A stretch of 35,495 bases of DNA, taken from assembly GCA_017465845.1 (NCBI GenBank), contig JAFTVH010000082.1:1-35495 (forward strand), in the 5' to 3' direction. Below the pieces are notes generated by a model. That model was given only the letters and a program-made list of their open reading frames with translations. It searched no databases and was not told the origin of the DNA. The translations under genes and the position numbers were made by a program. Positions 5,262 through 33,217 of this stretch are shown piece by piece; positions within the stretch are counted from its first letter, which is position 1, and every line of letters begins with the position of its first letter. Source of the stretch: Lachnospiraceae bacterium. Its GTDB lineage: Bacteria; Bacillota; Clostridia; Lachnospirales; Lachnospiraceae.

Positions 5262-5903
5262 TTACAAAACGTTAGACACATATTCAATAGCTTCAATCAC
5301 GCCATCCTTTACAATGAAGCGCAGTTTCATATCATCCTTTTCATAAATCATCAGATTTTCTTCCACCGTGCACTCCGTACCATATACCTGCTCCAGCTTC
5401 TCTCTGCTGTCGCCGATAGCCACTCCTTCTACTGTGGTTACAGAGTCATCTTTCAGAATAACGGAAGAAATATAGTCTTTATCCTTACCGGGATACGTAT
5501 TGATTTCAAATCCGCTGTAGGTATAGATCTTGTCCAGGCCTTCGAATGCGCAGCTGGCAGCTTCAAAATAGGACAGAGGCTCGCCAAGTGCCTCAATGAT
5601 CGGTGCCGCCTCCGCATCCATTTCTATCACGACATCCTTGCTGATAAACGCATAACCTTTATAGCTTTCAGAAGCTGCATTCTCTGCCTTTGACTCCTGA
5701 TTCTGATTTTGATTTTGGCTCTGATTTTCATTTTGGTTTTGATTCTGACTTTGACCGGCGTTCTCCTCTTTCTGTGACAGATTCGTGGAATTGTTCACTT
5801 CCCCGCTGATCACATTTTCACTTTGCCCACATCCTGTCAACATTGCCAAGATCATTCCCGTTACCACTATCACATTCGCCTTTTTCATATTTATCTTTTT
5901 CAT
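5262..5903 (-). CDS. Lipoprotein of unknown function with Gln/Asn-rich linker
   Basis: 213 residues from the ATG at 5903, chosen because GGAGGAG lies just upstream of it; an ATG at 5915 precedes that ribosome site. The signal peptide ends in MLTGC (Cys25 lipidated). A low-complexity Gln/Asn/Glu linker follows, encoded by imperfect hexanucleotide repeats around 5698-5754, then a folded domain of about 130 residues. This contains GVAIGDSREKLEQVYG, a pattern seen in small BLIP/SmpA-like or DUF4309-like lipoproteins; that resemblance is only suggestive. It is the last gene of the Dlt-like operon, 14 bases after the SGNH gene, so it probably works on the outer face of the membrane with the acyl-transfer machinery, perhaps as a sensor or acceptor chaperone. 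Confidence 0.75.
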   Translation of the reverse strand: MKKINMKKANVIVVTGMILAMLTGCGQSENVISGEVNNSTNLSQKEENAGQSQNQNQNENQSQNQNQNQESKAENAASESYKGYAFISKDVVIEMDAEAAPIIEALGEPLSYFEAASCAFEGLDKIYTYSGFEINTYPGKDKDYISSVILKDDSVTTVEGVAIGDSREKLEQVYGTECTVEENLMIYEKDDMKLRFIVKDGVIEAIEYVSNVL

Positions 5904-5917
5904 ATTCTCCTCCATTT

Positions 5918-17253: not shown

Positions 17254-19578
17254 TTACTCTGCCAACCAGCCTTTAACTACAACTTCATCATAAACCTGAT
17301 ACAGATATTCCATTTCCATATCAATCTCACTCTTTGTTCCGGATTTCCTGTAAAGCTCATCACACTTATTAAAATAGCTCTCAAAGTCGTGATAATCTCT
17401 CTGTTTTGTATCCAATGATGCCTGGCCGTCAATTTCCAGGAATGCCAGCCTCTTGTATATCAGATAATTGTCGGTATACAGCTTATCGGCTTCTAACAGG
17501 CAATCTTCAGCCTCTTCATATCTTCCAAGACTCTGCAAAAATACTGCTTTATCCAGCCACTCTACCAGTGTCCCGAAACCTGAAGTAATGATTTCATCCA
17601 AAGCTTTTACTGCCGCTTCTGTGTAAGCCGTATCTTGCGTCAGCTGCCCATAATCACCATACACCTGTGCCATACGCTCCAGTACTAAAAGTTTCTTATC
17701 GGCTGCCAGATTACGACTTAAATCTTCCAATAATGCAATTCTGTCAGGATAAGCTGACTCACCATAGCCTTCGCCCAGAATTTCATCCAATTTCAGCCCT
17801 GCACTGAGTTTCACATAATCATCACCACTGGAACTGAAACATTCCTGAAGGTAATCCACTGCTTTTTCATAATCCTTCTCAAGACCGGCAATTTCTCCCT
17901 GTAAAAGCAGGATACTGTCATTTCCCAGTCCTTTGGCATTAGCCTGAATGAGGCACTCTCTTGCCTGTTCCAGATTGCCGCTTCTCGCAAGTGCAATTCC
18001 GTAATCTCTGTAATATTCCGGGACACTGCTGTCTAACAAAATAGCTTTTCGGTATTCACCGACTGCCTCCGTATACAATTCCTGCTCCAGATAACAGCTG
18101 CCGGCCAGATAATAACTTTGGCTCATCTGAGCGCTTTCCTGATACAGTGCATTATTCAGGATATTATCTTCCAGATATGCAATGGCTTCCACATATTGTC
18201 CCTGATTGTAATATTCTGATGCTACACCCAGTTTCTCAGTCAGTCCCTCCTCCGAGCGCATGCCCCAACCGATATAGGCAGCTCCGGCGCTTCCCAGGAA
18301 AAGCACAACCAGAATCACCAGGAAAAGGTCCTGTTTTCGAAGCAATCTCTTATATCTCTTGGTAGATTTCATCAGCTGCCTCATAGCAGTTAACAGCTGT
18401 GCAGCATTCTGAAAACGCTTCTTAGGCTGCTGTTCCATACCGTGCATCAGAATGTATGCAAAAGCATCATTCACAGAAGGCATCAGGTCTTCTATCGGAA
18501 CCTGTTTTTCATAACAGGGCGCAGGTTTCTTACCGGTGAGAATATGATACATCGTTGCACAGGCGCTGTAGATATCGCTTCTTTCATCTACCTTCAGCCT
18601 GGAACCGTACTTCCTGGTCAGTTCGTCTACAGATGGTCTGGAAGCAGGTTGCTGCATTGCCGTTACAGGAGAGGCTGCCTTCTGCTCCTTCTTTGAAAGC
18701 TTCCCCTTCTTCTCTGGAGCTGTAACGGCTACATAAGCCACTTCTGTTGCGTCATCGTCTAAGACCACCGTCCTGTCATCGTCAATTTCAGTTCTGTCAT
18801 CGTCAATCTCAGTTCTGTCATCGTCAATCTCAGTTCTGTCGTCATCGTTTGAGACCTCTGTCCTGCTGTCGTCAATCTCGGTCCTATCATCAGCGTCCAC
18901 CACAGTTTCGATTTCCGTCCTGTCATCATCCGTCGCACGATATGACTCATCACTTTGAGATACACTGTTCTTTCTTTCCTGCTGTTTCCTGCGACCTCTC
19001 AACTCCATCTGTATCAACTGCTCTACAGGCGAGTAAGAAGGAGAATATCCGATTGTCTCATCTTCTCCTCCACCCTGCAGCACCGATACGTTGAAATCAA
19101 TCAGGCAGATATTATTCTGTGGTGTCAACATCAGGTTAGCTGGTTTGATATCGCTATGGATAATATGCTGCTCTGAGTTATGCAGATATTCCAGTACCTC
19201 CGCCAACTGTCTGGTCCACTTAATGACTTCTTTCTCGGAAAATACCCTGCCTTCATTTAACAACTCTTGGAATGATTTTCCTTCGATAAATTCCATGACT
19301 GTGTACACTTCATCCTCATAGGCCCAAAAGTCCACGATTCCGGGAAGATATGTATGCTTCAGGCTCATGAGAATCTTCATCTCACGTTCACTGCCAATGA
19401 TACTGACTCTGTCACTCCTTATTTTCTTTAAAACCACTTTCCTTTTCAGACGTTTGTGAATACCCTGGTAGATAATTCCACCGCCTCCGGAATTGATAGG
19501 TTTAATTTCATCATAGTTTTCATTCAGTTTTTGCAGGAAATCTTGTTTATCCCTGTAATCTTCTTCCATTTTTTTCAT
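17254..19578 (-). CDS. Membrane Ser/Thr protein kinase with acidic threonine-repeat insertion and extracytoplasmic TPRs
   Basis: 774 residues. Kinase N-part: Gly-rich loop NSGGGGIIYQG (29-39), Lys51 in VVLKKI, a helix C Glu near 66, catalytic loop HSDIKPAN (141-148, Asp143) and metal site DFN (161-163) in place of DFG. The activation segment ends GYSPSYSPVEQ (177-187). The domain then resumes only at DERSDIYSACATMYHILTG (331-349), the helix F region. Between lie about 140 inserted residues with tandem DDRTEID units (217-280). A transmembrane segment (about 416-438) leads to an outside TPR region (about 445-760). Canonical one-component Hanks kinases place PASTA domains there instead. The ATG lacks a strong ribosome site. 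It heads a five-gene operon; the FHA and PP2C partners are in the neighbouring operon. Confidence 0.93.
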   Translation of the reverse strand: MKKMEEDYRDKQDFLQKLNENYDEIKPINSGGGGIIYQGIHKRLKRKVVLKKIRSDRVSIIGSEREMKILMSLKHTYLPGIVDFWAYEDEVYTVMEFIEGKSFQELLNEGRVFSEKEVIKWTRQLAEVLEYLHNSEQHIIHSDIKPANLMLTPQNNICLIDFNVSVLQGGGEDETIGYSPSYSPVEQLIQMELRGRRKQQERKNSVSQSDESYRATDDDRTEIETVVDADDRTEIDDSRTEVSNDDDRTEIDDDRTEIDDDRTEIDDDRTVVLDDDATEVAYVAVTAPEKKGKLSKKEQKAASPVTAMQQPASRPSVDELTRKYGSRLKVDERSDIYSACATMYHILTGKKPAPCYEKQVPIEDLMPSVNDAFAYILMHGMEQQPKKRFQNAAQLLTAMRQLMKSTKRYKRLLRKQDLFLVILVVLFLGSAGAAYIGWGMRSEEGLTEKLGVASEYYNQGQYVEAIAYLEDNILNNALYQESAQMSQSYYLAGSCYLEQELYTEAVGEYRKAILLDSSVPEYYRDYGIALARSGNLEQARECLIQANAKGLGNDSILLLQGEIAGLEKDYEKAVDYLQECFSSSGDDYVKLSAGLKLDEILGEGYGESAYPDRIALLEDLSRNLAADKKLLVLERMAQVYGDYGQLTQDTAYTEAAVKALDEIITSGFGTLVEWLDKAVFLQSLGRYEEAEDCLLEADKLYTDNYLIYKRLAFLEIDGQASLDTKQRDYHDFESYFNKCDELYRKSGTKSEIDMEMEYLYQVYDEVVVKGWLAE
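18770..18844. repeat. 21-bp tandem repeats encoding DDRTEID
   Basis: Three tandem 21-bp units at 18770-18790, 18791-18811 and 18812-18832 (the second and third identical, the first with two changes), plus a partial fourth. Each encodes one seven-residue DDRTEID unit. Degenerate copies continue to about 18930. The period is a whole number of codons, so copy changes keep the kinase frame. Confidence 0.9.
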
Positions 19579-19693: not shown

Positions 19694-20176
19694 ATGGAAA
19701 TTAATATAATTTGTTTCTTTATACTTTTTGCATTTTATGTACTTGGCGCCTATGCTACCACTGACATCCTTCGTCTGCTTAAAGGAAGCACAACCTCTGT
19801 AAACGCCAAAGACTGTTACTGCCCCATTTGTGGCTATCGAATTCCGTTATACGATCAGATTCCCATTTTTTCCTATCTTAAAAACAAAGGGAAATGCAGA
19901 AACTGCCATTCACAGATTCCTTTTTCTGACCTTTTTCTGGAAATCTTTATTTTCCTAGGCTGCTCCATAATTACAGCAGCATGCTCCTTTTCTTGGATAG
20001 GCTTTGGACTTAGCATCGCATTCTATGAAAGTACCAAGCTGTTCTACATTATTCGAAAAGGTGCCAGAGAAGACCATTTTCTGTCCAATCTGTTAAAATC
20101 TCTTTTGAATAATCTGGTATGGTTCGTTCTTCTTGCATGCCTCTTCCTGATTCTTAAACTTGTCCGGTTTTCTTAG
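19694..20176 (+). CDS. Stand-alone prepilin-peptidase N-terminal (CxxC) domain membrane protein
   Basis: 160 residues, the only plus-strand gene. An N-terminal membrane segment (about 4-22) is followed by the zinc-binding module found at the N-terminus of many type IV prepilin peptidases: CPIC (43-46) and CRNC (68-71), around the characteristic YDQIPIFSYLKNKGKCRNC. Two or three more hydrophobic segments follow, but neither catalytic aspartate motif of the A24 peptidase is present. AGGAG lies 7 bases before the ATG. The A24 catalytic domain is encoded separately at 23869-24528 and lacks this module, so the two may together make up one split peptidase. It could instead have become a separate chaperone-like protein. 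Confidence 0.8.
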   Translation: MEINIICFFILFAFYVLGAYATTDILRLLKGSTTSVNAKDCYCPICGYRIPLYDQIPIFSYLKNKGKCRNCHSQIPFSDLFLEIFIFLGCSIITAACSFSWIGFGLSIAFYESTKLFYIIRKGAREDHFLSNLLKSLLNNLVWFVLLACLFLILKLVRFS

Positions 20177-20331: not shown

Positions 20332-21069
20332 TTACTGCTCCATTTCTCCCACTACCTGCAAAACAGCGCAGGATATGTTATCTTTCTCATTCCGTTCCAT
20401 TACAAGATCAACTAACTTGCGACAAATTATTTGTATCTCTTCATTTCCGGATACCCCCCTGAATAAATCTTTTACGTCCTCATAAATAAGCTTTTTGTAT
20501 AAACCGTCGCTTCCTAAGATAAACACATCTCCCGCATTTACATTGCCATGCTGCATGTTGACATATAGTTTTCTGTTTTTACCGATATAGTTTACCAGCA
20601 GTGTTTTTTCTCTTCCTCCTATCAGTTTCAACACAACTTCATCCTGAGTCATTCGAAATAACCTGTCCTGTAAGCAATAAATCCTACTATCTCCCACATG
20701 GAAAATGAAATATTCGAAATCATAAACAAAAATCAATGACATAGTGCAGCCAATATCTATATGAGTCTTTTCACAGTACTCATAAACTAATTCATTTAGT
20801 TCCTGTATAGTCACTTCTAAATCTAAAATCAAATCTGCCTTATTGATCGGCCTTGGGAAATTTCTTCCAACACCGTCAAACCAGTTTAAAATTCCTGTAG
20901 TTACCATCTCAGAAGCTATTTCACTTTGCGAAAAGCTGCCTATACCGTCGCATACACAGGCCACTGCAAGAACCTTTTCTCCCACGGTCATGCAGTCACA
21001 TATTACGCTGTCCTGGTTCTTACTCCTGCAGTTTCCTCTATCCGTCACACACCCAACATTCAGTTTCAT
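20332..21069 (-). CDS. PP2C-family protein phosphatase
   Basis: 245 residues, the usual size of bacterial PP2C/Stp phosphatases. The metal-ligand aspartates are in place: Asp20 in KNQDS, Asp41 in VCDGIG, Asp127 in HVGDSRIY, Asp188 in LGSDGLY and Asp230 in KDNISCAV. It is soluble and cytoplasmic and would remove phosphate from Ser/Thr residues on targets of the kinase at 17254-19578. It is the last intact gene of the Tad operon, 19 bases after the FHA gene, so pilus machinery, phosphate reader and eraser are co-transcribed. A fragment of a paralogue follows in frame. Confidence 0.93.
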   Translation of the reverse strand: MKLNVGCVTDRGNCRSKNQDSVICDCMTVGEKVLAVACVCDGIGSFSQSEIASEMVTTGILNWFDGVGRNFPRPINKADLILDLEVTIQELNELVYEYCEKTHIDIGCTMSLIFVYDFEYFIFHVGDSRIYCLQDRLFRMTQDEVVLKLIGGREKTLLVNYIGKNRKLYVNMQHGNVNAGDVFILGSDGLYKKLIYEDVKDLFRGVSGNEEIQIICRKLVDLVMERNEKDNISCAVLQVVGEMEQ

Positions 21070-21088: not shown

Positions 21089-22489
21089 TCAACAAACTTT
21101 GTATGTAATTTTCTGATTTTTTGAGATCGTGATTCTGTCACCCTGTTTAACCGTATAAGGCATATTGGCTACCAGTAATTCACCATTTAGCATAGTTCCA
21201 TTTCCTGAACCCACGTCAACGATCATGTACTCTCCACCGTTTTTCTCTATCCTAAAATGCCTTCTGCTGATAAAAGAAAAAGATGCATCAAAATTATAAT
21301 CAGCTTGTGCATTTCCTGCCTTATCATATCTTCCCACAGTTGCATGCCCTCTACTCAAATCAATTTCAACGTATTTGGGGAAATGATAACCTCTGTCCTC
21401 TTCCAACTGCAAAGTCAGCTTTCTGGTATCACTCTCGGAAGGTGTAATATAATCAATAACGGTAGCATCATAACCATCCGCATATTCATTTCCTGCTTTC
21501 ACCGGTATCTCTGTTTCGTCCACTTGAAAGCTTCTGGATCTCCCGAATGTTTCCTGAACCGGTTTCTGTGAAGGCGTTACATCGACATTACTTTTACCGC
21601 CTCCTAAAATTCCTCCCAGGAATCCTTTCGCAGGCTTATCTTTTACCGGTTCCTTTCCCACTTTAATGGGCTTTTCCTTTTTTTTGTTTTTATCTTTCTT
21701 CTTAGGTTCGTCATCAACTTCCCCAAATAAATTATTAATTAAACTTCCCTTTACATCCTCTTTTCCAAACTCTCCCTTTACAACGGGAGTATCAACCGGT
21801 GCACTCTTAACTTCTGCCTGGTTGTTCTCTTCCGGCTTTCCGGTATTCCATATTTTATTGTTAACAATTTCCTTATTAATATTTATCGGGGATGTTTTCT
21901 TACTTTCTTCTCTCTTCGGTTCCACTGGTTGCTTAACTGAAACATTACTGTTCTCTCTTGCTTCATGTGTTAAGTAATCAAGAACTGATACAACACTTAT
22001 ATTCTTTTCTTTTAAGTGACGATAAAGATTCATTACATATACAGGATCGTCACTAAGATTTATATTTAAGACAAAATCCCTGAAGAAATTCAGCACATCT
22101 TCTTCACTTTGAGTAAATTCACTATCCGGAATATATATGTATCTGATATTGGAATAATCTTTTCCCACAATAATATGTTTTTTGTCTAAACAGAAATTGT
22201 GGTAATCTAAAAGCCAGTCATTACATACCTTAAATGGATATATCATATTTTCCAGCAGTATGAGAAACTCCCTTTTTGTCATGCTCTCCGGAAGATATTC
22301 CAGACGTGTTCCTTCTCCCATTTCATATTTTACTTCGATTTCTCCGTCTATATTAACCATTTTGACCGGCAGCAAAAAATCCGGCAGATCCTGTTTGATG
22401 ACCTTTACTGCTATATCATCCAGTGTACTGGCATCCTCAATCGTCATTTTTGCATATGTCTTGCTTCCAATTACAACATCATTCAACAT
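21089..22489 (-). CDS. FHA-domain phosphothreonine-binding protein
   Basis: 466 residues from the ATG at 22489, chosen because AAGGAG lies 7 bases before it; an ATG 18 bases earlier precedes that site. The N-terminal domain (about 1-180) resembles the DUF6382-type region often paired with FHA in Firmicutes. A long charged, probably disordered linker follows (180-365), Lys-rich around 260-290. The C-terminal FHA domain (about 370-466) has GR (386-387), SRRH (408-411), and GNGTMLN (429-435), the residues that grip phosphothreonine. No transmembrane segment is present. A DATVID motif at 341-346 could be an autoregulatory phosphosite. It likely reads phosphothreonines made by the kinase and links them to the pilus machinery. 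Confidence 0.92.
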   Translation of the reverse strand: MLNDVVIGSKTYAKMTIEDASTLDDIAVKVIKQDLPDFLLPVKMVNIDGEIEVKYEMGEGTRLEYLPESMTKREFLILLENMIYPFKVCNDWLLDYHNFCLDKKHIIVGKDYSNIRYIYIPDSEFTQSEEDVLNFFRDFVLNINLSDDPVYVMNLYRHLKEKNISVVSVLDYLTHEARENSNVSVKQPVEPKREESKKTSPININKEIVNNKIWNTGKPEENNQAEVKSAPVDTPVVKGEFGKEDVKGSLINNLFGEVDDEPKKKDKNKKKEKPIKVGKEPVKDKPAKGFLGGILGGGKSNVDVTPSQKPVQETFGRSRSFQVDETEIPVKAGNEYADGYDATVIDYITPSESDTRKLTLQLEEDRGYHFPKYVEIDLSRGHATVGRYDKAGNAQADYNFDASFSFISRRHFRIEKNGGEYMIVDVGSGNGTMLNGELLVANMPYTVKQGDRITISKNQKITYKVC

Positions 22490-22521
22490 ATAAAATCTCC
22501 TTTTCATCCTGTCTGTCAGAT

Positions 22522-23868: not shown

Positions 23869-24528
23869 TCACCCCACAAAGTATGTAATAATCAGTCCTA
23901 TATACAGAAAAGGTACAAATGGTATTTCATCTTTACGTGTCAGCTTCTTCCTCAACAACTGGAAAACAGAAAACAAAGCACTTATCAGACAGCCATAAAA
24001 CACAGTACCCACCACATACTCACCTGTTAAAATCAACCCCAGCAGTAAGGAAAGCTTTACATCGCCACTTCCTAAACTTCCCCTGCTGAACAGGTACACC
24101 AAGCCAAATGAAATCAAACAGAATAAAAAACCCAGTATCATAGATGGTAGCATCTTGATAAGAACATCGATATCTTTCACTCCCTGAAAGCCTGTTTCCA
24201 GGAACCCAAACAGCAGTAAAATCAATAAAATCCTATTCGGTACGATTCTTTCCCACAAATCAGTCATGCAGATAATTGTCATGATTACCAACGCAGTATA
24301 CAACAATCCGAATAAATAGCCATCCAACAAGTCCGCATGATATTCATACCAGATTTTCAAAACTGCACACTCACTGAAAAATACTGTTACTATTTCCGGC
24401 ACAGTCCGGAAAAATTTCCGGTTTCTATTCTGTTCAAACTCAAAATATGGTTTCTGCCACTGTAATATCACTATATACAGTAACGGCAGGCTTATCAGCA
24501 TAACAGCCAATATTACATAATCTTTCAT
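23869..24528 (-). CDS. Prepilin peptidase, A24 family catalytic domain only (TadV/CpaA-like)
   Basis: 219 residues, polytopic. Both catalytic aspartates of the aspartic prepilin peptidases are visible: Asp90 in MTDLWERIVPN and Asp156 in LGSGDVKLS (GxGD motif). It cleaves the short basic leader of Flp pilin and TadE-like pseudopilins at the inner face of the membrane. It lacks the N-terminal CxxC/methyltransferase part, as TadV-type enzymes do; a protein with that part alone is encoded at 19694-20176. It starts 10 bases after the TadE-like gene in the Tad operon. Confidence 0.9.
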   Translation of the reverse strand: MKDYVILAVMLISLPLLYIVILQWQKPYFEFEQNRNRKFFRTVPEIVTVFFSECAVLKIWYEYHADLLDGYLFGLLYTALVIMTIICMTDLWERIVPNRILLILLLFGFLETGFQGVKDIDVLIKMLPSMILGFLFCLISFGLVYLFSRGSLGSGDVKLSLLLGLILTGEYVVGTVFYGCLISALFSVFQLLRKKLTRKDEIPFVPFLYIGLIITYFVG

Positions 24529-24538
24529 GTTTTACACC

Positions 24539-25357
24539 CTACTTTTGATAATGTACGCCGTCTCCATCCAGCCATGCCGGAATCGCACAACGCTGAACAA
24601 CATGAATTTTCGGTTCTTTAAAAAATAATCTAAAAAAGAAAACTTCCAAATCATACTCTACAACCATGTCGATCATTCTGTATTCAGAATCCGAAAACAA
24701 CTTGCTGTTACTGAAATCTAATCCTTTCATACCATTTTCCACACCGGCAGCCTTCAGATATTCATCCGCCGTCCTGGGATTTGATGGTGAAAAACCGGCA
24801 TCAAGATAATTAGATACCATACCGGAAGCAACCGCCCCCAGAAGAAGGCTTTTAAGCTCAGCCTCCAGGTTCTCTATGCCAAAATAAACAATATTTCTTA
24901 TCAGATCCTGTGGATCACTGATCAACACTTTTCCGGATTCCAGTGCCGCCTTTGCCGATTGTAAAGTAGCTTCTCCTTGCGACAGTACATTATCTATATC
25001 ATTTCCAAGTTCACTCCAGCCATTACTCCCCACGCTTGAAGCACTGCTTTCCAACGAACTCAGCTGATTCAGAAATGCTGTTGTTTTATCAATAGTGTCA
25101 TCCAGTTCTTGTGTTTCCCTGTCAATATCTTCCTTTAAACCGAGATCCGCACTTCTAATACCCAATGCCTCATAGAAATAGGTATATGATGCCAGTTCAC
25201 TTCCGGCCTGGTACATTGCATATTGCACCTTATTATGTACCATAAAAACATTAATAAAAGAAATAATTCCCATGACAACAAGGATAAATGGCACCAGACT
25301 AAGGACGGCTTCTACTGTTATCATACCTTTTTCACAGCTTCTATCCTGTTCTTTCAT
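24539..25357 (-). CDS. TadE-like pseudopilin
   Basis: 272 residues from the ATG at 25357, preceded by AGGAAAGG; a GTG 24 bases upstream would overlap the previous gene. Near the N-terminus is the prepilin-like junction KGMITVEAVLSLVPFILVV, with Glu five residues after the Gly, as in TadE/Flp prepilins. It continues into a hydrophobic helix and a long extracytoplasmic part. Cleavage would be by the peptidase encoded next (10-base gap). TadE-like proteins are minor pilins or assembly factors. It is longer than usual for TadE (about 150-200 residues). Confidence 0.85.
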   Translation of the reverse strand: MKEQDRSCEKGMITVEAVLSLVPFILVVMGIISFINVFMVHNKVQYAMYQAGSELASYTYFYEALGIRSADLGLKEDIDRETQELDDTIDKTTAFLNQLSSLESSASSVGSNGWSELGNDIDNVLSQGEATLQSAKAALESGKVLISDPQDLIRNIVYFGIENLEAELKSLLLGAVASGMVSNYLDAGFSPSNPRTADEYLKAAGVENGMKGLDFSNSKLFSDSEYRMIDMVVEYDLEVFFFRLFFKEPKIHVVQRCAIPAWLDGDGVHYQK

Positions 25358-25370
25358 TTCTCTGCCTTTC

Positions 25371-27926
25371 CTAATAACCACGTATTACTGAATACCCGTA
25401 AGAACCGTTATCCAGCTTCTGTATTACAGCACTTGTGTCGGTTCCCGAAATAAACAGATTGATAAAATTCTCCGGAACAATGACAAATTTTAAATTCACT
25501 TCACAAGTACTTTTGATTGCAGTGACCGTATTTGCCATCTTAAAATCCAATGTTCCCAGCGTATCCTTATCATTCTGACTCTGGTTTACATTCAGAGTGA
25601 TCAGATTCGACGTTCGGTCAAGTAAATCATCTTCATCCACAATCAGGCACATTATCACATACATATAATCCTCATAGGATAGTTTGATGTCATCGCTCTC
25701 TTCGCCTTCCGGTAATGATATCCCCAAAAACGAAGCTATTGAACTTATAGCCGTCATATCTCCTAACTGACGTTTGCAAAAAACAACATCCTTTCTCTCT
25801 TTTAAATCATCCCAGTCAGCCACTGTTTCCAATGTAGCTACTGTCATGCGTAATGCTCCGCTAACAGCTACTCTGACCAGAGGTGCTGCAGCTGCTCCCA
25901 CACCTGTTGCCGCGACAGCCTCCGCAGCAGCATTTGCAATACTATTGATTGCCTTATTAACTTCTTCAACAGAATATGTAGAAATAAAATTTGTAGTCAT
26001 ACGTATTCCACAGATAATATTTCTTGTATAGTTCAGATTATCCTTAGATTTATTATAACCGCCGATCAGATATTCAAGTTCTGCACCGTATAAGTAATTG
26101 ACATCCTTAGACATTTTTACTTTTGTCAGGCTCACATCGTAATATTCCTCGTCCTGACCACCATTGTCCGTTTCTGATGACACTACCTCCGTCACATTAT
26201 TCCCTGATTCTTCTTCATCCTCCTCCGGTTTCTCTATTCCGGATACTCTGCTGGAAAACATTCCAAAATTATATGTAGTCAATAAGAATTTCCCGACAGC
26301 TCCATTTCCTAAAGAGGCAAGGGATGCCCCACCCGAGAAGCAATCAGACACATCCGGTACTTCTGCACTGCTCGCCGGCTTCTTCAATTGACCTGCCAAT
26401 GTACTCGTGATGTCTCTGGCCTCTGTAGATTCATCTCCTTGCAATGACTTTTTAGCTTCTGCTTCTACCTTTTCCGCATTTTCGATTTTCTTATCGGCAG
26501 CCTTCTTATCTCCATTGGCATTGGTATCACTTTTTTCACATAACTTTACCAATTGACTGTAGAAATCGCTTTTATCATCCTGGAAATCATACCATTCAAA
26601 CGAAATTTTCGCATCCCAGTCATATTTCCTTTGATCTCCATCCAGAAGATTATCCTCTACCTTTTTTAATGCATCGGTCTTTACATCCCACTTATCTTCG
26701 TTATCACTGTCTTTCTCAGGATCCTTGTTAGTATATAGCAAATTTACTGTTTTTTTAAACTCATCTGCTATCTTGGTTATTTCTTCCAGACCCGCAATTT
26801 CCTGGGTTATACCTTCCCGTAAATCCTTTGAGCAGGTTTGCAGCGTTCCTTTCAGACTCTCTATCTGCTCCTCAAGAGTATTTAACACATCCTCCAGGTC
26901 TTTAGCCACCTTGTCCAAATCCTTCACTTTGCCCTTAACCTGACCAAATTTTATTTTTTGGGAGGTTGCATCCAAAGAATCAGCCCACCCGGAGAACTTA
27001 TTCCTAAGTTCTTGTTTATATGCACCTACATCCACATATTGTTTTGCCAGCTCTTCTGCCTGCTTTCTTTCTGCTTCTGTCACTTGCGGAACTTTAATTT
27101 CCTTTGCTTCGAACTCTTCTCCCGCTTCTTCTGCTTTCTTCTTTGCTTCTTCCTGCTCCCTGACTTTTTGCTCGGCTTCTTCTATCGATCTCAAAAGTTC
27201 TATTGCATCATCAATCTTTCTTCTGTTATCTAAATAGTTTATATATGCCTTATACTTGTCACTGTCATATACTTCCTTTAACAATTTCGAATAGGAACTA
27301 TATTTATTACTACGTTCCGTTAAATACCCCGGATAATCATTGATACACTTCAGAATCGCATAATACTCATCAATCTTTCCCAAAACTTTAGCACTGCTTT
27401 TCGTAATTTCCGCACGTTCATCGGCTGCATCCATATCTGAAGACATAGAGTCAAACTTACCTAAAGTTCCTAAGATATCTGCCTCTGTCAGCAGTTCTTC
27501 AATTACCCTGAATTTCATAAAGTCACTGATCTGCGTCATAAGGACATTATTATTGGAAAGGCTTGCTCCCGCTACTTTCGTATAGGAGACATCTATCTCC
27601 GCTTCCTTATAAGGCATAAAACCATCCAGATCCTCATTATCTCCATCAGGGATAAAGGAATACTTCGTGTACTTTGCCAGATTTTCAATCGCTTCCAGCC
27701 CTTCTTTATTTTGTGTTACTGAAAACAATCCATATAATTCTTTCAGAAGATTATCATACTCACTTAAGACAACTTCTCCATAGGAATCTGCTGCCATTGC
27801 CGCCTGGGAACTATATAATTTTAAGCGAGCAACATCTACCATAGTTCCGGTACACGTTACCACCGGTACCATGATGAGCGTAACAAATACTGTAATGATT
27901 CCTCTGTTCTTACGCCGTTTTCTCAT
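25371..27926 (-). CDS. Large DUF5702-like Tad-locus protein (TadG-like position)
   Basis: 851 residues from the ATG at 27926, chosen because GAGGGG precedes it; an ATG 48 bases upstream lacks a site. The N-terminus has a basic stretch, then RGIITVFVTLIMVPVV and AARLKLY-like residues (VDVARLKLYSSQAAMAAD), the pattern of DUF5702/TadG-like proteins with one N-terminal transmembrane helix. A long Glu/Lys-rich coiled-coil region follows (about 190-420), then a Ser/Thr/Asp-rich part and a C-terminal domain with YLYGAELEYLIGG. The bulk is outside the membrane. In Gram-positive Tad loci this large protein takes the place of TadG, possibly as an anchor or tip component. The reading as pseudopilin-like is inference. 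Confidence 0.82.
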   Translation of the reverse strand: MRKRRKNRGIITVFVTLIMVPVVTCTGTMVDVARLKLYSSQAAMAADSYGEVVLSEYDNLLKELYGLFSVTQNKEGLEAIENLAKYTKYSFIPDGDNEDLDGFMPYKEAEIDVSYTKVAGASLSNNNVLMTQISDFMKFRVIEELLTEADILGTLGKFDSMSSDMDAADERAEITKSSAKVLGKIDEYYAILKCINDYPGYLTERSNKYSSYSKLLKEVYDSDKYKAYINYLDNRRKIDDAIELLRSIEEAEQKVREQEEAKKKAEEAGEEFEAKEIKVPQVTEAERKQAEELAKQYVDVGAYKQELRNKFSGWADSLDATSQKIKFGQVKGKVKDLDKVAKDLEDVLNTLEEQIESLKGTLQTCSKDLREGITQEIAGLEEITKIADEFKKTVNLLYTNKDPEKDSDNEDKWDVKTDALKKVEDNLLDGDQRKYDWDAKISFEWYDFQDDKSDFYSQLVKLCEKSDTNANGDKKAADKKIENAEKVEAEAKKSLQGDESTEARDITSTLAGQLKKPASSAEVPDVSDCFSGGASLASLGNGAVGKFLLTTYNFGMFSSRVSGIEKPEEDEEESGNNVTEVVSSETDNGGQDEEYYDVSLTKVKMSKDVNYLYGAELEYLIGGYNKSKDNLNYTRNIICGIRMTTNFISTYSVEEVNKAINSIANAAAEAVAATGVGAAAAPLVRVAVSGALRMTVATLETVADWDDLKERKDVVFCKRQLGDMTAISSIASFLGISLPEGEESDDIKLSYEDYMYVIMCLIVDEDDLLDRTSNLITLNVNQSQNDKDTLGTLDFKMANTVTAIKSTCEVNLKFVIVPENFINLFISGTDTSAVIQKLDNGSYGYSVIRGY

Positions 27927-27989
27927 TTTTCCCCTCATTCTGTGATTATCACATTTTCTTCCATCTAAGATCATTTCTCGTATATTCCA

Positions 27990-28661
27990 CTACTCTACGC
28001 CAAGAGTCTTCTTCATTTCTCCGTATAATTCACCGAATTTACTTGCAAAATTCCGGGCGAGCTCTCCCAATTTTGTATCTTCAACAATATCTATTGCATA
28101 ATCCACGTTACGGATCATGTCATCATGATCTATGACATTTACCCGTGCAGCGGCTGAAATTTCATATTCATTATCAACACCTAATATACTGAAATCTATC
28201 GGTGCATCTACTATCTGTGTTGCTGTCACTTCCAACTGTTTGAAAATCACATAATTGGAATAGTCAACTGTTAATGTCAAATTATCGTCAAACAACATAT
28301 TTCCTGCCACAGACCGAAAATATGCTTCAAAAGCATCTTCATCCCCCAGGTTATGTCCATCGCCGAACAACCCTCTGTATGGATTCAATGGCTCCGTTGC
28401 TGAATAGGAATTTCCGCTGGCCATAGAACTCTCCTCTGTCAGGGTATATTCCAATGTATTGTTTTTGGTCACATAAGTATCTGTTACCGTATTCTTGTAA
28501 TAAACAAGCGTTGTCTCCAGGCATGCCTGGAGATTCGCCCTTTGGAACATGAAGAGGGACAGATACAATAATAGAATTACACTAAGAATAGCAATGGGTA
28601 AAATAATAGTGGCTTCTACTGCTACTGAACCACATTCCTTTCTACTGTTTTTCTTTTTCAT
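27990..28661 (-). CDS. TadE-like pseudopilin
   Basis: 223 residues from the ATG at 28661, with GGAGG about 11 bases upstream; a TTG codon overlapping that site is rejected. The N-terminus has basic residues and then ECGSVAVEATIILPIAILSV, a prepilin-type cleavage junction with Glu five residues after the Gly, leading into one transmembrane helix. The remainder is extracytoplasmic with no recognised domain. It is the first of two TadE-like genes flanking the DUF5702-like gene. An exact 20-bp palindrome lies inside its coding sequence at 28514-28533. Confidence 0.85.
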   Translation of the reverse strand: MKKKNSRKECGSVAVEATIILPIAILSVILLLYLSLFMFQRANLQACLETTLVYYKNTVTDTYVTKNNTLEYTLTEESSMASGNSYSATEPLNPYRGLFGDGHNLGDEDAFEAYFRSVAGNMLFDDNLTLTVDYSNYVIFKQLEVTATQIVDAPIDFSILGVDNEYEISAAARVNVIDHDDMIRNVDYAIDIVEDTKLGELARNFASKFGELYGEMKKTLGVE

Positions 28662-28723
28662 TAATAACTGTCCCTCCAATGCCTATTTGATGGCTTACTT
28701 TAATATATTTTTATATTGTATTA

Positions 28724-28957
28724 TTATAATCCATCAGCAGTAAACTCTGAACTAAAAATTGTATCCATGATGCCTTTTAAAAACGCTTGCAACCTATCCC
28801 AGAAAACTCCAATAAGCAGGACAACGATCAACAAAATAATGATTGTTGCTACAACATTAGAAACTCCCCTCTCGGAAGACATGAAATTTCTAAAGCTTTC
28901 CTTTACTTTTGCCATTTTGTTCTGAGCACCGATTACCAAATAATCAATTGTATTCAT
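28724..28957 (-). CDS. flp: Flp1-type type IVb major pilin
   Basis: 77 residues. After a short leader (about 1-30) comes ERGVSNVVATIIILLIVVLL, a hydrophobic polymerisation helix of the Flp1 family, followed by a small C-terminal part of about 25 residues. It lacks the classic Glu five residues after the cleavage Gly (Asn-Val-Val there instead), as usual in the Flp1-like group. AGGAGG precedes the ATG. It is the likely main subunit of the pilus. An AT-rich inverted repeat overlaps its last codons and the following gap (28688-28736). Confidence 0.88.
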   Translation of the reverse strand: MNTIDYLVIGAQNKMAKVKESFRNFMSSERGVSNVVATIIILLIVVLLIGVFWDRLQAFLKGIMDTIFSSEFTADGL

Positions 28958-28999
28958 CTACCTCTTCCTCCTTTATTCATTTATTATTAACCTGTCTGT

Positions 29000-30091
29000 C
29001 TAAAAACTGAAGCCAGACATGGCAGGTACAATAATCACAACCAAAATACCAATAAACATCAGCATTGTAGGCACAAACAGCTTGTTTTGTACTGCTTCGC
29101 CCATTCGTCTTGAATTATGTTTCTTATCCAGCCAACACTCTGCATTGATTGCCCTCAGATTATCTGCAAGATTTGTATTACCTTCAACATAACTCTTACT
29201 GATAACCGTTATCATTTTATCCAGATATTTATTACTGCAGCGACACTGCAGATGAATAAGAGCCGCCCCCACAGATTCAGACTGATGCATTTCTTTTACT
29301 ACTTTTTGTAATTCCAGATATATAGTAGTTTCACCACTATTGGCAGTCTCTTCAATGGCCTTAACTATATTCATACCGGCCGTTGTCAGTAATGCCAGCT
29401 TGGATATAGCATTGGGGAAGTCTCTGTCAATTGCGTCCTGCCTTTTCTGTGCTTTCACCCGCAGACCGTCATATGGAATGTACCCCAATAACAGCATACC
29501 TACGAAAGCAACTAAAGACAGAATAAGCACACTGTTCATATCTTTTCCCATTGCCATCATCACCAAAGCCAAAAAGATTGCCAAAAAAACACCTATAAAA
29601 GCATAGGAAAACAGAGATGCAATAATATAATAAGCATATATATAAGAATTCTTTCTATCGCCGGTTTCCTGACCTCTTTCCAGTTCTATGTATCCCGAAT
29701 GTTCACAACTGTCTGTCAACTTACGGAACATGTCACTGTCCGCATTCACTTTTAAATCTACCAGCAACTGGTATCCGAACAATGCAATTCCATCCACCAG
29801 TGAAAAAGTTCTTCCAGACAGGTACTCTTCTTTTTTCTTTTCATAATCGGAAATCTGTTTATCCCATCCCTTAACTTTTTTAGCAGCTTTCTTTTCTTTG
29901 CAAGTATGGTATTTTGCATTATTCTTCAAAAAAATTTCCTTTTTTTCTTCTATATCCTGTCTTGAAAACTTGTTATTCCAAGCTTTCGAAAGCACCAGCT
30001 CCGCAGCCGCTGACCGGTTTCCTTTGCCCATCTCTATCATAAAGAACACTGCTAACAATGTCATAAGGACTGCCAAAATCAATACTGCCAT
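29000..30091 (-). CDS. tadC: Tad inner-membrane platform protein TadC (type II secretion F family)
   Basis: 363 residues from the ATG at 30091, preceded by AAGGA; the frame is open further upstream only through a TTG inside the previous gene. A membrane segment lies at the N-terminus (about 2-20), with a pair near the middle (about 170-215) and a C-terminal one (FVPTMLMFIGILVVIIVPAM). The conserved GspF/TadC helical region is before it, with ISKLALLTTAGMNIVKAIEE and ALIHLQ. With TadB it forms the platform on which the CpaF ATPase drives pilin polymerisation. It follows tadB after a 7-base gap. Confidence 0.88.
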   Translation of the reverse strand: MAVLILAVLMTLLAVFFMIEMGKGNRSAAAELVLSKAWNNKFSRQDIEEKKEIFLKNNAKYHTCKEKKAAKKVKGWDKQISDYEKKKEEYLSGRTFSLVDGIALFGYQLLVDLKVNADSDMFRKLTDSCEHSGYIELERGQETGDRKNSYIYAYYIIASLFSYAFIGVFLAIFLALVMMAMGKDMNSVLILSLVAFVGMLLLGYIPYDGLRVKAQKRQDAIDRDFPNAISKLALLTTAGMNIVKAIEETANSGETTIYLELQKVVKEMHQSESVGAALIHLQCRCSNKYLDKMITVISKSYVEGNTNLADNLRAINAECWLDKKHNSRRMGEAVQNKLFVPTMLMFIGILVVIIVPAMSGFSF

Positions 30092-30098
30092 TTTCCTT

Positions 30099-30875
30099 CT
30101 ACACCTCGATTTCTGTTGCCTTTGTCGCAATCACATAAGATGCAAACGTACAAATTACGCCAAAAGTTGCTGACAAGCGACCTGTTAATGTCGTAAATAA
30201 CGAATCCATAAGCCCACCGCCCATAGATGACATCATCAGTACCAATATCAATGGAAGAACCAGCATCATATAAGCTTCTGATTTTGCTGAAGTGATTGCC
30301 GTTTCAATTTCCATAGTGATTTCTACCTTATCTTTAATTATTTCATGGGTCTGCGTAATAACATACCCAAAATCACTGGTCTTTCCTTCAATGGTAGAAT
30401 ATATTGTAGCAAAACTGATAATGTCATCAATTTCACTTCTCATTCCCAATTCACGAAAACCTTCTTTCATGGGAATGCCTGCTCGCTCATAATCTGACAC
30501 AATCAGTGCAATTTCTCTTACAATATCTGCTTTTTCATTAAACATCATCTCCAATTCCCTCAGGGAATCTTTTACGGCATTTTCCATAGATCGTCCGCTA
30601 CCACCACTGATAGATATAGAAATAATCTCCAAGAATTCATTAAATTGCAACCTTAATTTATTCTGTCGTTTCTTGGTAACAGATTTGGAATAATTTCGCT
30701 CCTGCGGAATAGCAATCAGCAGCCCTCCGATAATCGATACGGGCAAATATCTATAATAAACAAACAAAATAGCTGCTATTGCAACAGCAAATACAAAATA
30801 TGCCAAAACATGCTCTATTTTTGACATATTGCACTCGTAATATTTAATTCGTATCTTATCCTTATTCTCCGACAT
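30099..30875 (-). CDS. tadB: Tad inner-membrane platform protein TadB (type II secretion F family)
   Basis: 258 residues from the ATG at 30875, with GGAGG six bases upstream; this start overlaps the end of cpaF by 14 bases, indicating translational coupling. Two N-terminal membrane segments (about 20-52) are followed by the type II secretion F helical domain (QFNEFLEIISISISGGSGRS and ERAGIPMKEGFRELGMRSEI) and two C-terminal membrane segments. It is the partner of TadC and contacts the ATPase in the cytoplasm. Confidence 0.9.
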   Translation of the reverse strand: MSENKDKIRIKYYECNMSKIEHVLAYFVFAVAIAAILFVYYRYLPVSIIGGLLIAIPQERNYSKSVTKKRQNKLRLQFNEFLEIISISISGGSGRSMENAVKDSLRELEMMFNEKADIVREIALIVSDYERAGIPMKEGFRELGMRSEIDDIISFATIYSTIEGKTSDFGYVITQTHEIIKDKVEITMEIETAITSAKSEAYMMLVLPLILVLMMSSMGGGLMDSLFTTLTGRLSATFGVICTFASYVIATKATEIEV

Positions 30876-32157
30876 TTTCTTCCTCCAGATAATCATAGAT
30901 ACCAGCCAGTACAAACTTATCCTGATTGATAATTTTATTTTTTGTACGCTTAAGGCTGCCAGATACTTTCTTCAGCGTCGTATTACTGTCTTCCTCAAAT
31001 TTATAGATAGGATTCAATATGATTTTTCCGTTTTCATATCCCACAACTTCCGTAATTTCCATACATTTTCTGGAAAAATCACGCAATCGGGAAAGATGGA
31101 TTATGTAATCTACCGCCGATGCAATCTGCATACGAATTGCCTCCAACGGAAGATCAGCGCTGCCTGTTAAAACCATGGTTTCCAGACGACTCAGCATACC
31201 TTCCGGAGAATTTGCATGACCTGTAGAAAGACTGCCGTCATGGCCTGTGTTCATAGCCTGGAGCATATCCAATGCTTCTTCTCCTCGTACCTCACCGACG
31301 ATGATCCTGTCAGGGCGCATACGAAGAGACGCTTTTATAAGATCACGTATTGTAATTTCTGTAGCTTCCTTCGAATTTGCCTTCTTAGTTTCCATTCGAA
31401 CCAGGTTCGGTATATTTTTAATCTGTAACTCTGCTGAATCTTCGATTGTGATAACACGTTCCCATGGCTGAATAAAATTAGACAATGCATTCAGGAATGT
31501 AGTCTTACCGCTGCCGGTACCTCCTGCCACAAACACATTATGTCTGGAGGATACTACTTTCTGCAGAAAATCTGCCACCTCAGGTGTTATGGATTTATAC
31601 TCCAACAGTTTCTCAATCGTCATAGGATTCTTAGAGAATCGTCTGATAGTAACAGTAGCACCATCAAGCGCAACCGGAGGAAATACAACATTGACACGGG
31701 AACCGTCCTCCAGTCTTGCATCGACAATAGGATTACTTGCGTCAATGGTTCGGTCCATCGCATTTACAAACTTTTGAACGATCCGCACCAGGTCATCATT
31801 ATCCTGAAAATGCTCTTGCAGCTTCATCAGCTTTCCGGCTTTTTCTACAAAGATAGTATCATATCCATTGATCATGACCTCCGTGATATCCGGATCTGTA
31901 ATAATCTTTCCCAGGATTCCCAAGCCTTCCACAGACTCAAGTACCGTGAATTTCAATGAATTCTTGTCTTTAAATGACAGATTCAGATAATACTGATATA
32001 ACTGACTGTCATTCTCTTTAGCCCAGAGTATTCGTTCCTTTATCTTCTGAGCAATGAGCTCTTCTATTTCTTCATCAGTATACTCTCTGATTCTGCTGGC
32101 ATCCTGGATTACCTGTTTCAGGACGGCAACTTCACTCATGAAATAATTATTGTCCAT
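30862..32157 (-). CDS. cpaF: Tad pilus assembly ATPase CpaF/TadA
   Basis: 431 residues, full length for the family. Motifs: Walker A AGGTGSGKTTF (211-221), Asp box ITIEDSAEL (237-244), Walker B/VirB11-type RIIVGEVRGEE (284-294) and His box GSLSTGHANSP (308-318, His314). The N-terminal domain contains ITEVMINGYDTIFVE and the RRFSK loop. This hexameric cytoplasmic secretion ATPase powers polymerisation, and in some species retraction, of Flp pili. AGGAGG precedes the ATG and the gene follows cpaE by 13 bases. Confidence 0.95.
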   Translation of the reverse strand: MDNNYFMSEVAVLKQVIQDASRIREYTDEEIEELIAQKIKERILWAKENDSQLYQYYLNLSFKDKNSLKFTVLESVEGLGILGKIITDPDITEVMINGYDTIFVEKAGKLMKLQEHFQDNDDLVRIVQKFVNAMDRTIDASNPIVDARLEDGSRVNVVFPPVALDGATVTIRRFSKNPMTIEKLLEYKSITPEVADFLQKVVSSRHNVFVAGGTGSGKTTFLNALSNFIQPWERVITIEDSAELQIKNIPNLVRMETKKANSKEATEITIRDLIKASLRMRPDRIIVGEVRGEEALDMLQAMNTGHDGSLSTGHANSPEGMLSRLETMVLTGSADLPLEAIRMQIASAVDYIIHLSRLRDFSRKCMEITEVVGYENGKIILNPIYKFEEDSNTTLKKVSGSLKRTKNKIINQDKFVLAGIYDYLEEENVGE

Positions 32158-32170
32158 TCTTTCGCTCCTC

Positions 32171-33217
32171 CTATTTCATAAGTAAACTCATATCAATTGT
32201 ATCCTTTGCAGAAATTAACTGAATAATATTCTTTAACGGCTGATTTCCATAATTATGTACACTTCCAATGTCCGGAACAGACAAGATATTTGATGCTTTT
32301 ACATTACCTTCCACTAAATTTGAAATCTTACACATTTTTCCTGCATATTCACGAACAAGTGCCTGCTGTGCAAACATATCCATTTTCCTGGAAGGAAGTT
32401 CTCCCGATCTATCTACCACAACAATATTATCCGCCTGTTCAAATACAGCTTTTCCAATACCATCCATGCTGCTTTGCATATCAACAACGACTACATCACA
32501 GCTTCCGCATTTTCTGATTTTATCTACAACATCAAACATCTCTTCCTGTGAAACTGTATTGTAATCTACAAATCGTTCAAAACCTTCAATATAGGATATG
32601 TTATTGAAGCCCTTCTTTATGATTCCTTTTAATTTTAATTGAAAGCTTGCATTCTCACCTGCAGATTCAATCAAAACAGTGATTCCTTCAGTTTCTTCCG
32701 TATGAGCATTAACAAGTGAAGAACTGTCTAATTGCTCCATACTTAAGAACAAAACATTTTTTCCATAAGCTGAAAGTTTATTTGCCAATGCCAGAGCTAT
32801 TGTCGTCTTCCCACATCCTCCAATCGGAGAATATACTGCTAATATCTTTGTTCTTTGGGAATTATCAAAGTCTGCCAGATATCCTGCTTTATCGGCATAC
32901 GCCTTTATAACCTCTTTATATATTTTACTGACTCTTTGATATTTAATTACTTTATCACAATCTGCGTATAGTCCGGCATTTCGAGCCTCTTCACTATATA
33001 AGCACATCGAAAGCTTTGTATTATAGAATGAAATTTTCTTCTCGCTGATATCAGGATCAAACAATACAATATCAAAACGTTTCGTCTGAAGTGCCTGTTC
33101 TAAACGATCAGCATTCGTAAACATGGAAACCGATAAATCTTCATAATCCTCCAAAACTTCTACTAATCTCTCCAAATAGTCTCTATTTACGTCTGCAATG
33201 GCAACCGAAATATTCAT
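32171..33217 (-). CDS. cpaE: CpaE/TadZ-like P-loop ATPase with receiver-like N-terminus
   Basis: 348 residues. The N-terminal part (about 1-110) has the alternating strand/helix look of a response-regulator fold: ISVAIADVNRDYLERLVEVL and FDIVLFDPD. The MinD/ParA-type ATPase domain starts around 124, with the deviant Walker A SPIGGCGKTTIAL (130-142), and VVVVDMQSSMDG as Walker A-prime/B region. TadZ/CpaE proteins place the Tad machine at its site in the cell. It is the first gene of the Tad operon, about 75 bases after a strong promoter-like element, with AAGGAA before the ATG. Confidence 0.9.
   Translation of the reverse strand: MNISVAIADVNRDYLERLVEVLEDYEDLSVSMFTNADRLEQALQTKRFDIVLFDPDISEKKISFYNTKLSMCLYSEEARNAGLYADCDKVIKYQRVSKIYKEVIKAYADKAGYLADFDNSQRTKILAVYSPIGGCGKTTIALALANKLSAYGKNVLFLSMEQLDSSSLVNAHTEETEGITVLIESAGENASFQLKLKGIIKKGFNNISYIEGFERFVDYNTVSQEEMFDVVDKIRKCGSCDVVVVDMQSSMDGIGKAVFEQADNIVVVDRSGELPSRKMDMFAQQALVREYAGKMCKISNLVEGNVKASNILSVPDIGSVHNYGNQPLKNIIQLISAKDTIDMSLLMK

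Follow-up and report, generated by a model that had tools for sequence, protein, structure and literature searches.

Introduction

In FHA domains, an Arg and a Ser residue bind the phosphate of the ligand and an Asn residue binds the peptide. Two actinobacterial kinases that recruit FHA proteins have been described: PknG is a non-HRD kinase, and PknB of Mycobacterium is an HRD/DFG kinase that recruits GarA through the phosphorylation of its activation loop. Here we analyzed a 35,495-nucleotide stretch of DNA from a Lachnospiraceae bacterium (contig JAFTVH010000082.1, positions 1 to 35,495, of assembly GCA_017465845.1; hereafter the window). It encodes a membrane Ser/Thr kinase with a Thr-rich insert within the kinase domain, close to genes for a PP2C-type phosphatase, a DUF6382-FHA protein and a Tad pilus. 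The comparison with related loci suggests that the insert probably acts as a docking array: autophosphorylated, it would recruit the FHA protein and mimic the GarA-like phospho-switch of that protein.

Related principles are known outside bacteria. The insert domains of receptor tyrosine kinases are autophosphorylated docking platforms that work through phosphotyrosine and SH2 domains; they lie between helices D and E, whereas the insert of the window kinase lies between the SPVEQ motif and helix F. The acidic SDTD repeats of MDC1, a eukaryotic protein that is not a kinase, bind the FHA domain of NBS1 when phosphorylated, and the array proposed here would likewise consist of acidic repeats phosphorylated for FHA binding.

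The closest precedent for a disordered, FHA-recruiting kinase segment is the PknG-GarA/OdhI system of actinobacteria. According to the excerpted text of PMC8546545, the disordered N-terminal extension of PknG autophosphorylates on several Thr residues that anchor the FHA domain of GarA/OdhI, the N-terminal ETTS motif of GarA/OdhI is then phosphorylated by PknG, and the activity of PknG towards OdhI exceeds that towards the bare peptide ~45-fold. Both PknG and the window kinase have TPR repeats and a disordered Thr-containing segment, which in the window is predicted to recruit an FHA protein. However, the docking sites of PknG are found in the N-terminal extension and the candidate sites of the window kinase inside the kinase fold; PknG controls metabolism, whereas the window module adjoins Tad pilus genes; and tandem arrays, one of which is present in the window insert, are not mentioned in the excerpt of PMC8546545. 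The proposed role also resembles that of PknB, in which a phosphorylated kinase segment recruits an FHA protein, but there the sites are in the activation loop or the juxtamembrane segment instead of an intradomain insert. PDB entry 6i2p holds PknB and GarA chains, and the phosphorylated juxtamembrane segment of PknB interacts with FhaA, as cited in the available part of PMC12077195.

Similar sets of genes accompany secretion systems. Type VII secretion system (T7SS) subtypes c-j contain kinase/PPM phosphatase/DUF6382-FHA modules (TscD, TseD, TsjD; TseJ, TsjJ), and in T7SSe and T7SSj, as in the window, a membrane kinase, a PPM phosphatase and a DUF6382-FHA protein are encoded in one cluster (PMC11217815, main text). 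TsjD has a predicted TPR domain, as does the window kinase. These modules are tied to type VII secretion and that of the window to Tad pilus genes; a text search of the main text of PMC11217815 found no mention of an insert, disorder or a loop. In the proteobacterial type VI secretion system (T6SS), the PpkA-PppA-Fha pathway also combines a kinase, a phosphatase and an FHA protein to control a secretion machine, but the docking site is on a component of the machine, pThr14 (phosphothreonine 14) of TssL, to which Fha binds (PMC3953482, in the part available), and not in the kinase domain.

Results

A Thr-rich insert appears to split the kinase domain

The window kinase matched the Pfam Pkinase profile with 112.8 bits (cut-off 31.7), but residues 22-188 covered only positions 1-169 of the 263 in the profile. 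Residues 320-412 alone gave a weak match (E 0.058) to positions 173-245. The same break, at profile positions 168-169, was found in the kinases of loci L036, L048 and L107, whereas the match of L044, a relative without an insert, ran in a single stretch over positions 1-240. The insert was therefore placed between SPVEQ (residues 183-187) and helix F (DERSDIYS, from residue 331). This gave 143 residues, in good agreement with the initial annotation, which had the kinase running regularly to SPVEQ at residue 187, followed by about 140 residues (18600..19050) before DERSDIYS. A charge-hydropathy rule scored the window insert as disordered, together with 29 of the 40 inserts described below.

The catalytic K51, E66, D143, N148 and D161 were invariant in alignments of 12 (A1) and 25 (A2) sequences, and in the putative C-lobe past the insert D335, Y337, G349, P385 and R388 were invariant in the 12 kinases of A1. 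In the window kinase, HSD replaces HRD and DFN replaces DFG. Among 70 kinases parsed for catalytic motifs, 32 had HSD, 23 HGD and 4 HCD at the first position, and 59 had DFN and 6 DYN at the second; the insert kinases L136 and L137 retained HRD. Most of the family thus differs from PknB with its HRD/DFG motifs. No conserved TxT was seen in the activation loops listed for the kinase family, and the score against NCBIfam PknB_PASTA_kin was 100.8 bits, below the cut-off of 450. The window kinase is a Hanks-type Ser/Thr kinase outside the PknB/PASTA kinase family. Since non-RD kinases need no activation-loop phosphorylation, the PknB-style recruitment of GarA through an activation-loop pThr is presumably closed to these kinases.

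Within the insert there is an array of eight DRTEI-like units. The sequence TEIE was found at T221 and TEID at T233, T249, T256 and T263, with looser copies at T225 (TVVD), T240 (TEVS), T270 (TVVL) and T278 (TEVA), which matches the four TEID, one TEIE and degenerate copies annotated initially. Recent tandem repetition at the DNA level was confined to the middle of the array, and five of the eight units differed in codons from the recent copies and from one another. A comparison of 28 unit pairs gave pS 0.85 and pN 0.16, but pN is biased low because the units were chosen by their residues, and no claim is rested on these values.

The insertion site is conserved while the insert turns over

A family alignment had been proposed as a check on the insertion site, and the site proved to be conserved. 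A protein search of 200 genomes of the window's family gave matches in 198, mostly distant kinases. When profile A1 was applied at E 1e-60, the close family was found in 50 of 397 genomes of the window's family and in 13 of 391 genomes of the class, the window's own genome being included in both counts. A protein-level scan of the contigs of the window genome returned a single weak relative; its assembly comprises 201 contigs and is 85% complete, and some of the other genomes compared are also incomplete. The loci compared (numbered L) were 12 stretches from the class and 58 from the family; the window's own genome supplied three of the latter, and 57 of the 58 were used. ORFs (open reading frames) of ≤250 aa (for example, L049|19292) and kinases with unparsable insert ends (L100|2112, L112 and L143) were dropped.

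Of the 68 parsed kinases, counting that of the window, 40 carried an insert of 42-168 aa at this position, and the remaining 28 had 6-25 aa there. Eight of the inserts came from the class-level loci and stem from seven families other than that of the window. The 25 insert-less kinases from the family include at least four ordinary kinases outside the main clade (L058, L065_11615, L110 and L120_3). When the kinase domains were placed on a tree with the insert left out and with midpoint rooting only, insert presence required at least 4 changes compared to 21.8 with shuffled labels. An old insert that was lost a few times fits this result, but a single origin is not established. The nearest relative of the window kinase, L036, was 68% identical over 249 kinase-domain columns; the two inserts were 32% identical (110 aligned positions) compared to 68-69% for the flanks. 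The insertion site is thus conserved while the insert sequence turns over fast.

A Thr-specific motif recurs in unrelated inserts

The element that recurs in the inserts consists of an acidic residue at -3 to -1, Thr, one of [DEQTVS] and one of [ILVMF], and it is specific for Thr. The window insert contained nine copies; 20000 shuffles gave 0.8 on average and never more than 5. Across the inserts, the motif was present in 30 of 40, compared to 10.0 in shuffles, with 58 copies compared to 12.3 (4.7-fold), and neither value was reached in 3000 shuffles. When Thr in the pattern was replaced, there was no enrichment in the same inserts (Ser 16 vs 13.3, Ala 8 vs 8.4 and Q/N/G 14 vs 16.5), nor was the reversed motif enriched (9 vs 12.3). 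Counted per Thr, 50 of 256 Thr residues in 32 family inserts carried the motif compared to 59 of 1030 elsewhere in these proteins, a mostly folded part and so not a matched control.

In a clean hold-out, with sequences fetched after the pattern had been fixed, 7 of 8 class-level inserts contained the motif compared to 1.5 expected (0 of 5000 shuffles). Of the 11 inserts of L099-L124, 9 contained it, a count that 6 of 5000 shuffles also reached, but these are not a clean hold-out because they had been viewed before the pattern was written. A looser pattern, T[DEQTVS][ILVMF], written after the hold-out inserts were fetched, was found in 33 of 40 compared to 19.4.

Outside the window, tandem arrays were judged by eye, and by the same measure their units were unrelated to one another: DDRTEID in the window, DLDDTDIAW in L036, SHTVAYDREKGETV in L037, GYAGADSDSTQVD in L038, QETVLLHEDPSDKTVPMPGAGI in L039, SDVTEREQTFPD in L107, EDRTELLREEAD in L099 and, from another family, DTAATELVDTDATALL in L137. 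The strict pattern occurred at least once in each of these arrays except those of L037 and L107.

The motif is found in the linker of the neighbouring FHA protein

The initial annotation had pointed to an FHA protein encoded nearby, and this is the DUF6382-FHA protein of Table 1, which matched Pfam FHA with 54.4 bits (cut-off 20.7) and has R393, S414, N436 and T438 in place. A single-FHA protein was found in the fetched locus of 29 of the 40 insert kinases, giving 28 such partner proteins; of their FHA domains, 22 retained R, 22 N, 17 S and all 28 T. The Thr motif was present in 19 of the 28 partner linkers (up to 80 residues preceding the FHA domain) compared to 4.3 in shuffles, and with Ser or Ala in place of Thr there was no enrichment (7 vs 6.2 and 7 vs 6.3, respectively). 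A Thr motif N-terminal to the FHA domain, predicted to be phosphorylatable, is the arrangement expected of a GarA/OdhI-like switch. The window FHA domain matched GarA/OdhI chains at E 2e-4 to 6e-4, but the protein is not an OdhI/GarA orthologue, with 27 bits against the NCBIfam OdhI equivalog (cut-off 200).

DUF6382 covers residues 21-169 of the window FHA protein and was found in 384 of 397 family genomes. A kinase- or pseudokinase-like fold for DUF6382 was not supported in a comparison of alignments A3 and A2 with hhalign (probability 0.8%) and remains a hunch, and there was no credible PDB sequence match to the DUF6382 profile (best E 0.44).

Three loci are described here in their own right. 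In L040 (genome G135), two insert kinases of different branches are found in one locus beside one DUF6382-FHA-like protein, and only the more distant kinase gene (9635) has the exact ATQID in common with the FHA linker. The kinase at L048:6731-9319 has an N-terminal zinc ribbon followed by a run of Thr patterns (NETLLLQSEGQENG...GGTVPLW), and it is possible that candidate docking sites exist at both the N-terminus and the insert. The third, the window genome's locus L057 (G000:C128), encodes at 9162-10052 a TIR_2-FHA fusion (TIR E 1.7e-8, FHA E 2e-13). A further observation concerns the insert-less clade L044-L047 and L104, which adjoins two-FHA proteins that were read by eye as ABC-transporter fusions and also small FHA proteins with T-V-[FL] before the FHA domain (EATVFL, EPTVF, DPTVLL and DATVLL). 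The FHA-linker motif therefore seems to be more widespread than the kinase insert.

The module adjoins Tad pilus genes

The coordinates of the features are given in Table 1. Read along the minus strand, the order is Tad genes, WG-repeat protein, FHA protein, PP2C, kinase, LRR/TPR protein, vWA protein and zinc-ribbon protein, with one plus-strand gene separating PP2C from the kinase. The Tad cluster includes a prepilin peptidase (Peptidase_A24), a DUF5702 protein, a TadA-type ATPase (T2SSE), TadZ and a TadE-like protein slightly under the Pfam cut-off; the names TadB, TadC and TadE1 are our assumption from position and general knowledge. In L036 the order of the window was kept from TadE through the zinc-ribbon protein, and in L038 and L052-L055 most of the order from Tad to the kinase was kept. 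The insert kinase of L043 adjoins vWA-FHA proteins instead.

Table 1. Positions of the kinase, phosphatase, FHA and Tad features in the window.
Feature	Position	Strand	Description
Membrane Ser/Thr kinase	17254..19578	-	Intact 774-codon ORF, 774 aa
Kinase domain halves	Residues 22-187 and 331 to about 405		Split by the insert
Putative single transmembrane helix	Kinase residues about 415-436		Hydrophobic stretch, judged by eye
TPR region	C-terminal part of kinase		
Intradomain insert	18589..19017 (residues 188-330)	-	143 aa, between APE-like SPVEQ and helix F
Array of 8 DRTEI-like units	18739..18924 (residues 219-280)	-	Thr 221, 233, 240, 249, 256, 263, 270, 278
Recently amplified tandem part of array	18773..18840	-	21-bp unit, 3.2 copies, 97% matches
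PP2C-type phosphatase	20332..21069	-	245 aa, presumed eraser
DUF6382-FHA protein	21089..22507	-	472 aa, presumed reader; FHA domain about residues 383-467
Linker before FHA domain	21437..21532 (residues 326-357)	-	VDETEIPV (T332), YDATVIDY (T349)
Tad/Flp pilus genes	23869..33217	-	Adjoin the kinase-phosphatase-FHA module; presumed client

Three other features were observed in the window and its genome. The prepilin peptidase is split, with A24_N_bact (E 1e-14) alone at 19694..20176 on the plus strand, between PP2C and the kinase, and the Peptidase_A24 part (E 2e-12) at 23869..24528 on the minus strand, among the Tad genes. A second DUF6382-FHA protein is encoded beside TadB/TadC-like genes at L056:5190-6386 (G000:C18), a region that may be duplicated in the assembly since an FHA match of equal score and equal frame length was found on contig C185. 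A Gln/Asn-rich low-complexity repeat (NQNQNENQSQNQNQN) is located at 5689..5754 on the minus strand, in a small lipoprotein-like ORF (5262..5915).

Discussion

The docking-array reading builds on a conserved insertion site, a Thr-specific motif found both in the inserts and in the FHA linkers, the gene neighbourhood, and the catalytic and pThr-binding residues. From these we infer phosphorylation, binding, release and control of the pilus. Thr residues of the disordered insert would be phosphorylated by the kinase, either in cis or in trans. The resulting pThr sites would be recognised by the FHA domain of the neighbouring DUF6382-FHA protein, which would thereby be drawn to the active site at the membrane. 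Once in place, the FHA protein would be phosphorylated by the kinase on the same motif in its linker (T332 and T349), and the phosphorylated linker could then occupy the FHA pocket, so that the FHA protein would be released from the kinase in a GarA/OdhI-like switch, which PP2C would reset. The probable client is the Tad pilus machine encoded next to the module. Several FHA copies may be bound per array, and the array may project next to the substrate lobe. That insert and linker have a motif in common is consistent with a single pocket and a single kinase, and the Thr-not-Ser signature fits an FHA reader because FHA domains recognise pThr, although a kinase that prefers Thr could leave the same signature.

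Several results weigh against this reading. The initial annotation proposed the docking array together with a rule that FHA domains prefer Asp or a similar residue at +3 of the pThr. The array gained support from the conserved site and from the Thr motif in the inserts and before the FHA domain, but the +3 rule did not hold. The presence of T..[DE] was not enriched in inserts (23/40 vs 26.9 in shuffles) or in FHA linkers (15/28 vs 14.3), and copies in the 40 inserts were only slightly raised (65 vs 52.5, reached by 74 of 3000 shuffles). In the window insert itself, eight T-x-x-[DE] were found compared to a shuffle mean of 3.5, but 596 of 20000 shuffles reached at least seven, so that the +3 acid by itself exceeds chance only weakly. 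An acidic +3 residue was thus rejected as a conserved feature; what recurs instead is the upstream acid, the +1 residue and the +2 hydrophobic residue. Moreover, the motif is missing from 10 of the 40 inserts, among them two conspicuous tandem arrays (SHTVAYD in L037 and SDVTEREQTF in L107); others of the ten have weaker Thr patterns (EDRTVTV in L041), and those of L049 and L105 look empty. The shuffle counts also overstate independence because the rows share ancestry (L142 and L146 belong to one genus), and the absence of the motif from all 25 linkers of insert-less family kinases is weak evidence because these linkers are just 6-25 aa long.

On the side of the reader, the phosphate-contacting Ser was Gly in 9 of the 28 partner FHA domains and Asp in 2. 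A single-FHA protein was missing from the fetched DNA of 11 of the 40 insert kinases; four of these loci end at a contig edge, but the other seven (L039, L049, L059, L102, L103, L105 and L108) extend for 6 kb or more on either side, and in L049 the only FHA domain is in a very large ORF. The best kinase/FHA motif pairs were closely alike (DEATQID/EDATQID in L040, DDRTELL/DDRTILV in L100, DDKTEIV/NQKTEII in L136, TDIA/TDIG in L036 and EDSTEVK/EDTTEMA in L121), but the kinase's own FHA linker ranked only 14 of 21 for the window, 18 of 21 for L043 and L109, and 21 of 21 for L048. Overall, the members of own pairs resembled each other somewhat more than those of cross pairs did (29 pairs, likeness reached by 339-367 of 20000 permutations), and the same held for the 20 pairs with the core motif on both sides (175-206 of 20000), a subset defined after the hold-out was fetched. 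The pairing is thus modestly specific, at about 1-2%, a figure that includes shared ancestry.

Other explanations were weighed against the same results. It is unlikely, in our estimate, that the insert is an autosubstrate or pseudosubstrate loop in which the kinase's own substrate consensus fills the active site in cis until it is phosphorylated. The output of the kinase would then be tuned, FHA binding would be unneeded and the shared motif would reflect kinase specificity alone. Such sharing is expected if one kinase phosphorylates both insert and FHA linker, the insert lies directly behind the activation segment, and the Thr bias is compatible with the preference of many bacterial kinases for Thr. 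However, the multiplication of the motif into arrays of unrelated units is not explained by this model itself, and the lack of Ser enrichment fits a pThr reader at least equally well. We give less credence still to a docking array for another reader, such as the FHA domains of large secretion ATPases, an FHA protein encoded elsewhere or the phosphatase. The insert kinases of L048, L049 and L099 do adjoin very large FHA ORFs (1.5-1.7 thousand aa), which we take to be EssC-like secretion ATPases, a label partly derived from PMC11217815 and tentative. In L048 and L099, the small FHA proteins lack the linker motif and their pockets are degraded, with the pThr pocket residues lost in L048; three further FHA matches exist in the window genome, and the 11 insert kinases without a single-FHA protein would also be accounted for. 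In contrast, the adjacent FHA domain of the window has all four pocket residues and its linker bears the motif, and FHA and PP2C genes are found beside the kinase in L036, L038 and L052-L054 as well.

A neutral spacer, meaning an acidic disordered linker that changes length by replication slippage and carries a functionless Thr motif, appears very improbable. It would account for the recent 21-bp tandem repeat, for inserts that diverge far faster than their flanks and for the arrays of L037 and L107 that miss the strict motif, but not for a motif that is Thr-specific, oriented, enriched in inserts and FHA linkers alike, and recurrent in unrelated repeat units and in other families.

If the docking-array reading is extended, the insert could be an ancient prokaryotic counterpart of the receptor-kinase insert domain. 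The number of tandem pThr sites would set how many FHA proteins are held per kinase, mimicry of the FHA switch motif would lead to competition for the same pocket, and the length of the array would tune a cycle of loading and release or, alternatively, cluster FHA proteins at the pilus base, with unrelated repeat units having evolved repeatedly for this purpose. As a whole, this joint reading is speculative and rather doubtful.

FHA-recruiting kinase segments are already known from PknG and PknB; what is new is the place within the kinase domain, the arrays and the pilus setting. A search of the open-access literature by title or abstract start found no FHA-docking kinase-domain insert, an absence that carries little weight. 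Among the papers listed, the T7SS study (PMC11217815) was the relevant one both for DUF6382 and for Tad genes combined with FHA, kinase and phosphatase genes. To our knowledge, little is known outside mycobacteria about the targets of bacterial FHA domains and the substrate choice of bacterial kinases. In this family, a single short Thr motif connects the writer with its presumed reader in many genera and allows both docking and switch sites to be predicted from the sequence alone. The results also suggest that the Tad pili of these bacteria are under threonine-phosphorylation control, like T6SS and perhaps some T7SS, and the location in the kinase domain would extend the docking-insert principle of receptor kinases to bacteria.

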